Of a DNA stretch of 64,000 nt, positions 51,396 through 56,733 are shown piece by piece. The stretch is from Porphyromonas vaginalis (GTDB lineage: Bacteria > Bacteroidota > Bacteroidia > Bacteroidales > Porphyromonadaceae), in contig NZ_CATQJU010000001.1 in NCBI RefSeq assembly GCF_958301595.1, forward strand, positions 62,001 to 126,000, given 5' to 3'. The translations under genes were made by a program, and so were the position numbers. Position 1 is the stretch's first letter. The number at the start of each line of letters is the position of its first letter. The notes under the pieces are model-generated. The model did not search any database, was not told the DNA's origin, and worked only from the letters and a program-made list of their open reading frames with translations.

Positions 51396-51401
51396 CATCG
51401 T

Positions 51402-51467
51402 GTTTTTCATGGTGTTAGATTTTAAGGTTAATGAGAAGGGGCTGTCGTACTGACAGCCCCTTTTTTA
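51402..51467 (+). ncRNA. Candidate small RNA of about 65 nt
   Basis: The start is inferred from the promoter. The transcript would read CATCGTGTTTTTCATGGTGT, then TAGATTTTAAGGTTAATGAG, and end in a strong intrinsic terminator AGGGGCTGTC-GTACT-GACAGCCCC with six Ts (stem at 51438-51460). No open reading frame of useful size fits. The single-stranded 5' half could be a target-pairing region. I have the impression that similar short promoter-terminator units occur in other Bacteroidales, but cannot name an Rfam family. Confidence 0.55.
51436..51467 (+). terminator. Intrinsic terminator of the candidate small RNA
   Basis: AAGGGGCTGTC pairs with GACAGCCCCTT around GTACT, followed by TTTTTT. Confidence 0.9.
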
Positions 51468-51556
51468 TGGTCACTGACATCATCGATTCTAGTCCTTCTT
51501 ACGAAGGGGGCTGCTGGCTATGCGCGTGAAGTCGTGGCAGTCTCATCTTTTTGTAT

Positions 51557-51588: not shown

Positions 51589-52038
51589 ATGAAAAGAGTT
51601 TATCTATCCGTACGCTCGCTCCTATCCGCTGGAGCTTCTCTCCTACTTGGATGGCTGGGATTCGCTAGCTGTGATGATGTCGGTATGGCTGAGTACGGCA
51701 CGCCTACGGTCGATTATGAGTTTAAGGTGCATGTCACCGACCAAGACGCTAAGCCTGTCGAGGGACTTCAAGTAGACCTACGCAACAGCCATGGAGTCGA
51801 AAAGGAACTCACCGATGCTCAGGGCAATGCTGAGCTAGATGGGAGCTACACAGGCTTTCACAGAGATCATCAGGTAGTCCTAGAGGTGAAGGACATCGAT
51901 GGCGAGAAGAATGGCGTCGTTGCAGACAAGCAGGTCACCGTAGAGGTCAAGGAGAGCGACTTCGTCAGCAAAGGCTCTAAAAGGTGGAACAATGGTAAGG
52001 TCAAGAAGGAGATAGAGATCCAAGTGGAGCGTAAGTAG
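51589..52038 (+). CDS. Radical SAM-associated lipoprotein, long form
   Basis: 149 residues: positively charged start, hydrophobic stretch and lipobox (LLLGWLGFASC, Cys 28), then DDVGMAEYGTPTVDYEFK and a single Ig/transthyretin-like beta domain (FKVHVTDQDAKPVEGLQVDL, GNAELDGSYTGFHRDHQVVL). This matches the lipoprotein of the rSAM/lipoprotein system (TIGR04134-type), whose hallmark is a C-x-x-x...YG-x-P motif shortly after the lipidated Cys and a neighbouring radical SAM enzyme. YGTPT is the likely site recognised or modified by the enzyme, but this is inference. It is followed by a second such lipoprotein after 37 bases. Confidence 0.85.
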   Translation: MKRVYLSVRSLLSAGASLLLGWLGFASCDDVGMAEYGTPTVDYEFKVHVTDQDAKPVEGLQVDLRNSHGVEKELTDAQGNAELDGSYTGFHRDHQVVLEVKDIDGEKNGVVADKQVTVEVKESDFVSKGSKRWNNGKVKKEIEIQVERK

Positions 52039-52075
52039 TCGGGACAGACCACTTACCTGTCACTCCTATTATAAT

Positions 52076-52333
52076 ATGAAGCGAACTCTCTCAAATATCT
52101 TTTCGAACCTAATCGTTGGCACGCTACTCGCACTGATCGGTTGCTTAGGCTTCTCCAGCTGTAAGACGCGCACAACGCATAGGACGAGCGAAGGCGACAA
52201 GGCGGAGCAGCCCGACACGACTACGCTCGTCAAGCCCAGGCCTAGACCAGACGGCATGGGCATGGTGATGTATGGCACGCCTACGACAACTTTCGAGCCC
52301 AAGCAGATAGTGATCCCTGAGGAGCAGGAGTAA
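52076..52333 (+). CDS. Radical SAM-associated lipoprotein, short form
   Basis: 85 residues. Signal and lipobox (LLALIGCLGFSSC, Cys 29) are closely similar to the long form, but the YGTPT motif (VMYGTPTTTFEPKQIV) lies far from the Cys, near residue 67, after a Thr/Pro/Arg-rich linker, and the beta domain is missing, leaving only ~20 residues after the motif. It looks like a minimal substrate: lipid anchor, linker, motif, short tail. It lies between the long lipoprotein and the radical SAM gene with gaps of 37 and 22 bases, so the three are probably one transcript. Confidence 0.82.
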   Translation: MKRTLSNIFSNLIVGTLLALIGCLGFSSCKTRTTHRTSEGDKAEQPDTTTLVKPRPRPDGMGMVMYGTPTTTFEPKQIVIPEEQE

Positions 52334-52355
52334 GTCATACCTTGTGATCCCGTCA

Positions 52356-53495
52356 ATGAAACTGAGCAAGCATAAGTCCGTCGGGCAGACGCTCTTACGT
52401 CCAGCATTCAAGCAGCGCATCGCACTAGACCTGCATCGTATCTTGCAGGCGGAGAATGTGCGCCGGCATCCGATGACGACGCTCTTCTGGGAGTGCACGC
52501 TGCGCTGCAACCTGCACTGCGGGCACTGCGGCAGCGACTGCCGTGTGGAGAGTGGTGTCGACGAACTATCGGTCGCTGACTTCATACAGATCATTGATGG
52601 GCTGACACCTCACGTCGATCCCAACAAGCTACTAGTCATCTTCACGGGTGGCGAGGCACTCGTGCGGAAAGACATCGAGGAGGCGGGGCTAGCGCTCTAC
52701 CGTCGTGGCTACCCTTGGGGCATCGTGACCAATGGGATGCTACTCGACGCACAGCGCTTGGATAGCTTGCGCCGTGCCGGACTACACACAGCGACGGTGA
52801 GCCTCGATGGCTTTGCCGAGGCACACAACGCTCTGCGTGGACATCCGCTCAGCTACGAGCGAGCTTGGCGGGCGATACAACTACTCACACAGGCCGAAGA
52901 CTTGGTCTGGGACGTGGTGACCTGTGTCAATCCGATGAACTTTGACACGCTCCCCGCCTTTCGTCAGCAACTGGTCGATGCGGGTGTGAAGCGATGGCGA
53001 CTCTTCTCGATCTTCCCCGTGGGGCGTGCTGCGGAGAATAAGCAGCTCCAGCTCTCCGACAGTCAGTACTACCAGATGATGCAGTTCATCATCGAGACGA
53101 ACGAGGCGGGAGAGATCGAGGCGCAGTATGGTTGCGAGGGCTATCTAGGCGCCTTCGAGGGGCGTACGCGTCAGCAGTTTTACCAATGTCGTGCAGGCGT
53201 AAACATAGCCTCTATCCTATGCGACGGCTCTATCAGCGCCTGCCCGAGTATTCGCTTTGACCACAAGCAGGGCAACGTGCATCACGACGACCTGTGGCAG
53301 GTGTGGGAGGAGCGCTTCGAGAGTTATCGTGATCGCTCGTGGGCTAAGACAGGTCCCTGTGCCGACTGCAAGAGCTGGAAGTACTGTCTGGGCAATGGTA
53401 TGCACCTACGAGACGATGAGGGCAAGCTCCTCGTCTGCCACCTCCAGCGTCTTGAAGCCGGGGCCGAGGCACTACATGCCTCTAGAGCAAGATGA
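52356..53495 (+). CDS. Radical SAM/SPASM enzyme of the rSAM/lipoprotein system
   Basis: From ATG 52356 the protein has 379 residues. The radical SAM cluster motif is CTLRCNLHCGHC (C-x3-C-x2-C plus one), followed by the SAM-binding GGEALVRKD. The C-terminal SPASM region binds auxiliary clusters: CRAGVNIASILCDGSISACP, then GPCADCKSWKYCLGNGMHLR and LLVCHLQR. Family TIGR04133 radical SAM enzymes occur beside the YG-x-P lipoproteins, as here; the modification is not known to me. An upstream GTG (52344) is possible, but ATG is preferred. Its stop overlaps the queG start (ATGA). Confidence 0.9.
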   Translation: MKLSKHKSVGQTLLRPAFKQRIALDLHRILQAENVRRHPMTTLFWECTLRCNLHCGHCGSDCRVESGVDELSVADFIQIIDGLTPHVDPNKLLVIFTGGEALVRKDIEEAGLALYRRGYPWGIVTNGMLLDAQRLDSLRRAGLHTATVSLDGFAEAHNALRGHPLSYERAWRAIQLLTQAEDLVWDVVTCVNPMNFDTLPAFRQQLVDAGVKRWRLFSIFPVGRAAENKQLQLSDSQYYQMMQFIIETNEAGEIEAQYGCEGYLGAFEGRTRQQFYQCRAGVNIASILCDGSISACPSIRFDHKQGNVHHDDLWQVWEERFESYRDRSWAKTGPCADCKSWKYCLGNGMHLRDDEGKLLVCHLQRLEAGAEALHASRAR

Positions 53496-56235: not shown

Positions 56236-56733
56236 ATGAGACGAGCCCTCTTACTCCTCACCCTACTCCTCAGCAGCCTCCTCACCCTCTCAGCTCAAAC
56301 CTATATTTATAGCGGAGATAAGCGGTACGACTACGACTCACAGGTCATCGCCACGTGGGACGGCACCTGCCTCTACAGCGGAGACAAGCGATACGATTAC
56401 AATTCACGAGTCATCGCCACGTGGGACGGAACCCGACTCTACAGCGGGGATAAGCGATACGACTACGACTCACGGGTCATCGCCACGTGGGACGGAACCC
56501 GACTCTACAGCGGGGACAAGCGATACGACTACAATTCACGAGTCATCGCCACCTGGGACGGCACCCGCATCTACAGTGGCGACAAGCGATACGACTACGA
56601 CTCACGAGTCATCGCCACCTGGGACGGTCCCCGCATCTACAGCGGCGACAAGCGGTACGACTACGACTCCCGAGTCCGCTACACCATCGAGGGGCACCTC
56701 CCCGTTGCCGTTGCCATCTACCTCATCTTGTGA
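56236..56733 (+). CDS. Secreted 22-residue tandem-repeat protein
   Basis: 165 residues: signal peptide (LLLLTLLLSSLLTLSAQ), six tandem repeats of about 22 residues (YSGDKRYDYDSRVIATWDGT plus two residues), and a short hydrophobic tail (GHLPVAVAIYLIL). The repeats are nearly identical; D/N alternation at one site (YDYD/YDYN) follows an every-other-unit pattern in units 1-4. Bacteroides has similar short secreted proteins built on a Y-S/R-G-(D/N)-S-x-Y-S-S-D pattern and ending in PVEIAAFLL-type tails, so this looks like a divergent relative of unknown function. The hydrophobic tail may be a membrane or surface anchor. Confidence 0.8.
   Translation: MRRALLLLTLLLSSLLTLSAQTYIYSGDKRYDYDSQVIATWDGTCLYSGDKRYDYNSRVIATWDGTRLYSGDKRYDYDSRVIATWDGTRLYSGDKRYDYNSRVIATWDGTRIYSGDKRYDYDSRVIATWDGPRIYSGDKRYDYDSRVRYTIEGHLPVAVAIYLIL
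56308..56700 (+). repeat. 66-bp coding tandem repeat, six units
   Basis: Units begin at the Tyr codons at 56308, 56374, 56440, 56506, 56572 and 56638, exactly 66 bases apart. Neighbouring units differ by only a few bases, so unit number could change by slippage or recombination without disturbing the frame. Confidence 0.9.

Follow-up and report, generated by a model that had tools for sequence, protein, structure and literature searches.

The window analyzed here is a stretch of 64,000 nucleotides from Porphyromonas vaginalis (RefSeq assembly GCF_958301595.1, contig NZ_CATQJU010000001.1, positions 62,001 to 126,000). Between its positions 51589 and 53495 lie three genes, encoding two dissimilar lipoproteins and, after them, a radical S-adenosylmethionine (SAM) enzyme with a SPASM domain. 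Open reading frames (ORFs) and profile matches agree with this trio as a first-pass annotation, made from the sequence, had described it. We address here the relationship between the enzyme and a short Tyr-Gly motif found in both lipoproteins.

Lipoprotein 1 (149 residues; 51589..52038, + strand) has its lipid-bearing Cys at residue 28 and is a member of the NCBIfam family TIGR04134 (lipo_with_rSAM), scoring 135.5 bits against a cut-off of 39.8. Its YGTP motif (residues 36 to 39; 51694..51705, +) precedes a beta domain resembling transthyretin and CarboxypepD_reg, which extends from residue 40. In the AlphaFold model (mean predicted local distance difference test score [pLDDT], 77.6), the first strand (E40-50) comes immediately after the motif, and Foldseek returned a loose likeness to transthyretin-like, CnaB, and SusC N-terminal-extension domains (TM-scores by query, 0.28 to 0.47). 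Lipoprotein 2 (85 residues; 52076..52333, +) consists of an anchor (Cys 29), a Thr/Pro/Arg linker, the motif (residues 66 to 69; 52271..52282, +), and a short tail. With 17.5 bits it falls under the same cut-off and is not a member of TIGR04134, its best-matching stretch being the motif region (residues 61 to 84). The lipobox context LGF-A/S-SC and the YGTPT run followed by an aromatic residue, Glu, and Lys, which the first-pass annotation had pointed out, can be read in both sequences (YGTPTVDYEFK in lipoprotein 1 and YGTPTTTFEPK in lipoprotein 2). The YGTP pattern as such is not enriched in the P. vaginalis genome, where it is encoded at 43 places versus 40 for the control. Among the 30 of these 43 places that are readable, a lipobox precedes YGTP only in lipoproteins 1 and 2, and no further YGTP lipoprotein was found.

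The third gene (52344..53495, +; 383 residues) encodes a protein with Radical_SAM and SPASM domain matches that belongs to TIGR04133 (rSAM_w_lipo; 560.8 bits, cut-off 425). It shares 97 percent of its residues with the enzymes in two P. uenonis records and 99 percent with that in one record from an uncultured Porphyromonas. Since both P. uenonis matches start at residue 5, the ATG at 52356 is probably the start codon, rather than the GTG at 52344. The enzyme displays the radical SAM cluster motif C55-x3-C59-x2-C62 followed by G63-S64 (52506..52535, +), a GYLGAFE stretch (residues 266 to 272; 53139..53159, +), and a SPASM region with Cys 282, 300, 339, 342, 348, and 365 (53187..53438, +). TIGR04133 and TIGR04134 are already catalogued as a pair, in models that are typed hypothetical and name no chemistry.

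A motif linked to the enzyme in dissimilar carriers

Our order set comprised 393 genomes, in which the enzyme was called present at E <= 1e-60 and TIGR04134 at E <= 1e-6; by profile search, the enzyme occurs in 97 of them and TIGR04134 in 68. Around 114 enzymes we counted signal-bearing ORFs situated up to 3.5 kb upstream or 2.5 kb downstream, with the opposite strand as a control. A YG.P protein is encoded on the enzyme strand at 100 of the 114 enzymes, versus 3 on the opposite strand, and each of twelve substituted motifs (FG.P, WG.P, HG.P, NG.P, YA.P, and others) reaches 12 of 114 at most. Any YG is present at 106 enzymes on the enzyme strand and at 37 on the opposite strand. Among the eight enzymes without a YG protein, four (L114, L141, L163, and L183) lie near contig ends, and L170 has a C-YGTPQ protein missed by the filter. 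With a stricter lipoprotein filter, YG.P is found in 107 of 161 ORFs up to 3 kb upstream of the enzyme on the same strand, compared with 7 of 289 others in the same loci. Three more divergent enzymes (L187 to L189) stand outside the 114; counting them, the YG.P figure is 100 of 117. No YG.P carrier was found near these three, L187 having one chance-looking YG, and none was seen in six loci of other genomes with enzymes of 154 to 171 bits. L187 to L189 and L264 to L269, which score about 150 to 250 bits against TIGR04133 and have no nearby YG.P lipoprotein that we could see, probably represent another family.

Residue statistics were drawn from 160 proteins selected for YG after the signal, a sample in which Tyr and Gly are thus given by selection, near-copies count separately, and some chance ORFs are included. 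Pro occupies position +3 in 124 of the 160. In those 124, 12 different residues occur between Gly and Pro, among them Gly (3) and Pro (2); over the whole sample, the residue before Tyr varies (Cys 38, Glu 34, Lys 22, Met 18, Gln 12, and others), and the fifth position takes many residues, with Thr not kept. The conserved core is therefore Y-G-x-P. The first-pass annotation had proposed YGTPT-x-x-(Y/F)-E as the recognition or modification site. The motif does hold as the common denominator of dissimilar proteins and covaries with the enzyme, as described below, whereas the proposed consensus proved too long.

Short carriers, with little beyond anchor, linker, and motif, are the only YG lipoproteins among those listed upstream of the enzyme in L038, L039, L042, and L043. 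In an alignment of eight short relatives of lipoprotein 2, M-Y-G (M65, Y66, and G67) is the sole invariant run past the signal region; P69 is also invariant, but in L042 (MYGVRNPVP) only across an insertion. Both observations agree with the earlier suggestion that lipoprotein 2 is a minimal substrate. The second also bears on whether YGxP is a docking element only, the modification occurring elsewhere in the lipoprotein, for example, at an aromatic residue at +7 or in the linker. Some maturases bind a leader and act elsewhere, and the +7 aromatic, on which the first-pass annotation had remarked, is present in 87 of the 160 proteins. Yet M-Y-G is the only run that the short proteins keep, many members of the C-YGTPQD class have no +7 aromatic, and multi-copy proteins repeat the motif. 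We thus regard docking alone as improbable.

The motif carriers have no common domain. They include beta-domain proteins of TIGR04134, short tails, coiled-coil-like proteins, proteins with non-lipid signal peptides, and C-YG lipoproteins. The coiled-coil-like carriers of L105, L107, and L112, judged as such by their sequence, contain two to three copies of YG[STV]P, and signal-peptidase-I-like ends read AQYGAP in L118 and L128 and AQYGSW in L138. In the C-YG class (38 of the 160 proteins; e.g., C-YGTPQ), YG directly follows a Cys, and 37 of the 38 are lipobox-like at that Cys. A plasmid of Treponema saccharophilum encodes a C-YGMP lipoprotein together with an enzyme that scores 451.4 bits against TIGR04133. 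Genomes with coiled-coil-like or other short carriers next to the enzyme (e.g., G003, G101, and G201) fall outside the 68 with a TIGR04134 match. The carriers without the TIGR04134 domain rule out that the motif is a fold element of that family only. As far as sequences can tell, the motif is more than a fold feature and is linked to the enzyme across dissimilar carriers. The proteins bearing it are very probably substrates of the TIGR04133 enzyme.

Two other arrangements of carriers deserve mention. In L115 and L127, runs of short lipoproteins precede one enzyme, some of them being K-YG proteins (KYGIP, KYGCI, KYGTP, KYGGP, and KYGVP) in which Lys replaces Glu or Met. In L144 and L154, there is a tandem of two different TIGR04133 enzymes, and a separate lipoprotein accompanies each of them (C-AKYGDI and C-YGTPHD).

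Covariation across genomes

TIGR04134 is present in 63 of the 97 enzyme-positive genomes and in 5 of the 296 enzyme-negative ones (Fisher, 1.4e-41). In the same order set, we searched residues 1 to 110 of the open frame in 107 TIGR04134-like ORFs for YG and found it in 97 of the 101 from genomes with the enzyme, versus 3 of the 6 from genomes with an absent or broken one (p 0.003). Comparing the motif across TIGR04133/TIGR04134 neighbors, as had been suggested along with the first-pass annotation, thus uncovered covariation between motif and enzyme. The four ORFs that lack YG in the presence of the enzyme comprise a G164 ORF cut off by the contig end, a G113 ORF interrupted by an in-frame stop, a YG-less paralogue in G129, and a loose match in G288; the G113 ORF went unread past its stop in this count, yet EYGTP is visible there. 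In enzyme-negative genomes, the YG-less ORFs read AGNGSPYAKF in G306 (compare IEYGSPYATF in L085) and DNKTPHADY in G369, and that of G086 has no YG.

Genome G022, counted as enzyme-absent, contains, close to a contig end, TIGR04133 fragments (L223 9780-10215) with the middle missing and the cluster motif degraded, which adjoin an intact C-YGTPQD lipoprotein; one more piece of the enzyme lies at the end of a contig. When this genome is left out, YG is found in 2 of 5 ORFs. Outside the order, TIGR04133 is seldom found: among 198 genomes of the phylum, two have a match over the cut-off. One is the window's own, and the other, G552, has PEYGVREP upstream of the enzyme. G516, which is likewise outside the order set and not in the count of 6, has a TIGR04134 match barely over the cut-off, no YG, and no enzyme.

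Could YGxP be a structural or sorting feature, with the neighboring enzyme acting on something unrelated? Conservation by fold or export is thinkable for lipoprotein 1, the motif of which stands directly before the first strand in the model, and G227 retains YG without a detectable enzyme. However, carriers without the domain keep the motif, as do coiled-coil-like proteins and proteins with non-lipid signal peptides, and half of the six TIGR04134-like ORFs from genomes with an absent or broken enzyme lack it. Such an explanation appears highly improbable to us.

Apparent kinship with spliceases and the predicted reaction

Searches of solved structures by sequence gave distant matches only (BlsE, SkfB, and PqqE), and a fold search (Foldseek) with the weak model of the enzyme (mean pLDDT, 69.8) returned distant matches to SkfB, at the top, BlsE, viperin, SuiB, and anSME. 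These matches do not tell chemistries apart. The relatives included in our trees were a Nostoc enzyme (L196), which scores 853 bits against TIGR04103 and so exceeds the cut-off of 725; four rows of TIGR03913 type, of which L202 exceeds the cut-off of that model, L203 is assigned by annotation, and L200 and L204 fall short; and one Agathobacter row below both cut-offs. The TIGR04133 rows group with all of these with support of 100/98 (68 rows). The grouping of TIGR04133 with the TIGR04103 and TIGR03913-type rows was recovered with support of 91/82 with more outgroups (52 rows, with NirJ, AhbD-like, and others) and of 100/96.5 in 48 rows from which four long-branch outgroup rows had been left out, and there both alternatives were rejected (approximately unbiased test, p-AU 0.024). 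One AhbD-like row, which had been read in the wrong orientation, was also omitted, as was the fragmentary L044 enzyme (trees and residue counts). The window enzyme scores 121.6 bits against TIGR04103, under the cut-off of 725, and is thus a relative and not a member.

These groups also have residues in common. The Gly-Ser pair after the cluster motif is present in 127 of 127 family rows and in 5 of 5 PlpX/GDL rows (the TIGR04103 row and the four TIGR03913-type rows), while in 17 other rows the Gly never occurs and the Ser occurs in about a quarter. Eight residues (G63, S64, W218, A229, G266, G269, E272, and D294) are kept in at least 85 percent of the 127 family rows, in at least 80 percent of these five rows, and in at most a quarter of the 17 others. 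CGS, W218, and GY.G.[YF]E are thus common to the TIGR04133 and the TIGR04103/TIGR03913-type rows, at most a quarter of the 17 others having them; GYLGAFE of the window enzyme has its counterpart in GYYGPYE in four of the same five rows, and the Nostoc enzyme has both CGS and GY.G.[YF]E. Cys 66, 194, and 264 are near-invariant in the TIGR04133 family only. The seventh Cys of what we take to be the usual SPASM pattern is found in CRGGC of the Nostoc enzyme and is absent from the window enzyme, which reads CLGNG.

TIGR04103 (rSAM_nif11_3) is presumably the same family as InterPro IPR026482; no paper naming both was found in the literature searched. According to published work, PlpX belongs to IPR026482 (PMC11002830) and works with PlpY, several splicing events being possible per precursor (PMC10373908), and PlpXY removes a tyramine equivalent from X-Y-G, the native sites being MYG and LYG (PMC10533398). 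LYGLPI, GYGLPI, and GYGVVFP were among the splice tags tried, with only some placements accepted in FtsZ (PMC10533398), and splicease beta-residues are reported to bring about protease inhibition (PMC10373908, citing Scott et al. 2022).

The system described here is like PlpX/PlpY in its radical SAM/SPASM enzyme and in its short, putative X-Y-G site, and our trees place its enzyme with the Nostoc TIGR04103 enzyme. YGLP, a form of YGxP, is present in some of these published tags and in the Nif11 peptide (Nif11 domain match) next to the Nostoc enzyme, which ends ALYGLPPELF. The multi-copy YG[STV]P carriers fit a splicease as well, because several sites may be spliced in one precursor (PMC10373908). 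Unlike those of PlpX/PlpY, the putative substrates have no Nif11 leader and are either lipoproteins destined for export or secreted proteins, and no PlpY-like partner was found; moreover, the prevalent Pro at +3, the three extra Cys, the missing SPASM Cys, and the identity of 27.7 percent to the Nostoc enzyme set the two systems apart. The TIGR03913 "GDL motif peptide-associated" maturases, which are in the same clade as TIGR04103, also neighbor small peptides (DUF1843), some with YG (RPYGPA and QPYGAG), but the five peptides read have no signal peptide or lipobox, and three of them no YG.

The first-pass annotation held that the chemistry of the family was not described. Indeed, the names TIGR04133 and TIGR04134 and a description of the system were absent from the literature searched, and the main text of a survey of Bacteroidales clusters for ribosomally synthesized and post-translationally modified peptides (RiPPs) contains, in its accessible part, neither "lipoprotein" nor "splice" (PMC10352776). 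However, the enzyme appears to group with the splicease family, for which X-Y-G chemistry is published, and this group may already be covered by Scott et al. 2022 (Chem).

On balance, we consider it somewhat more likely than not that the enzyme and its carriers form a two-component system for the maturation of exported proteins by tyramine excision at X-Y-G. The cytosolic radical SAM/SPASM enzyme would recognize the unfolded precursor at X-Tyr-Gly-x-Pro while it is still in the cytosol, a meeting place we infer because no export signal was noted on this iron-sulfur enzyme. The motif would be presented in a flexible stretch between anchor and domain, or in a protein consisting of little else. 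The X-Y-G-x-P site would then be changed, most likely by tyramine excision in view of the kinship and the motif, X being Glu35 in lipoprotein 1 (E-Y-G) and Met65 in lipoprotein 2 (M-Y-G). Such an excision would remove C8H9NO and leave a ketoamide at X. The modified precursor would be exported only afterward and, in most cases, lipidated and anchored.

Another radical reaction at YGxP, such as an intrapeptide C-C or C-O cross-link at Tyr of the three-residue cyclophane type, dehydrogenation, or oxidation of Gly or Pro, is a less likely alternative. SPASM enzymes carry out many such reactions, and SkfB, the top Foldseek match, is a RiPP maturase. Pro at +3 is more than X-Y-G splicing demands, and the three family-specific Cys suggest an altered chemistry. 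Conversely, the 12 residue types found after YG, with Gly in 3 and Pro in 2 of the 124 proteins, argue against a side-chain cross-link there in general and rule out a cyclophane between Tyr and that residue as a general rule. The nearest tree rows are of splicease type, not heme, TIGR04053, MftC, or PqqE, in trees that most cyclophane and thioether maturases are outside of.

Several points weigh against tyramine excision or its assignment to the motif. The strong Pro at +3 is not explained by X-Y-G alone, and the published tag GYGVVFP (PMC10533398) does without it. The grouping of TIGR04133 with TIGR04103 is deep (branch 1.7 to 1.8), with support of only 91/82 in the widest outgroup set; the trees contain neither PlpX itself nor many peptide maturases, and two of the four TIGR03913-type rows score under the TIGR03913 cut-off. 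With three extra near-invariant Cys and one of the usual SPASM Cys missing, the enzyme may have diverged in its chemistry. Of five DUF1843 peptides read in two sister loci, three show YA or lack YG (three more peptides of L203 are outside this count). The small protein encoded next to the Nostoc enzyme is assumed to be PlpY-like; nothing related to it was detected among 16,080 ORFs (E 0.1), and clustering of families of at least 90 residues yielded no third conserved gene family in more than 9 of 112 loci. As for the motif, YG without Pro is common by chance, as the opposite strand indicates (37 of 114), and L117, L122, and L148 have no nearby YG protein and no contig end to account for it. 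G227 (94 percent complete) keeps YG in two proteins, one of them at a contig start. The completeness of G369 is 75 percent. Its protein without YG is similar to one from G129, a genome of the same genus that has the enzyme, where a paralogue likewise lacks YG (ENKMPHADY); therefore, the loss of YG in G369 need not follow enzyme loss. The enzyme-negative sample is small, and its YG losses are not all independent of other explanations.

If tyramine excision is correct, an enzyme so far typed as hypothetical, present in 97 of the 393 order genomes sampled, gains a substrate site and a concrete reaction that can be tested by mass, and ribosomal beta-amino acids extend to lipid-anchored envelope proteins of host-associated bacteria. 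The protease inhibition reported for splicease beta-residues (PMC10373908) would therefore make the biology approachable. A splicease without leader or partner, acting on a substrate of 85 residues or fewer, would also be a protein-labeling tool. More tentatively, a splicease branch spanning Bacteroidales and a Treponema plasmid could rewrite the backbones of exported lipoproteins, with no leader or partner and on carriers that can be as short as about 50 residues. In the C-YG class, the lipid-bearing Cys itself would be rewritten, leaving a reactive ketoamide at the surface of the membrane that might serve as an anchored inhibitor of proteases or as a covalent trap.

In Tropicibacter oceani, a TIGR03913/TIGR04103-like enzyme below both cut-offs (L204 2174-4982) adjoins a gene for a trypsin-like peptidase, a possible pairing of protease and ketoamide.

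Other features of the window

About 120 bases 5' of lipoprotein 1, at 51400-51470 (+), the window matches the FopS small RNA family (Rfam RF04319; 69 bits, gathering threshold 56). The end of this RNA looks terminator-like by eye (GGGGCTGTC-GTACT-GACAGCCCC-TTTTTT), although a terminator scan did not list it. The FopS family is also found at L108 4934-5004, in a second Porphyromonas, and was below threshold in the 12 other loci searched. Further downstream, an ORF at 56236-56733 (+) contains, after a signal-like start, 5.5 copies of a 66-base repeat (unit SGDKRYDYDSRVIATWDGTRLY).

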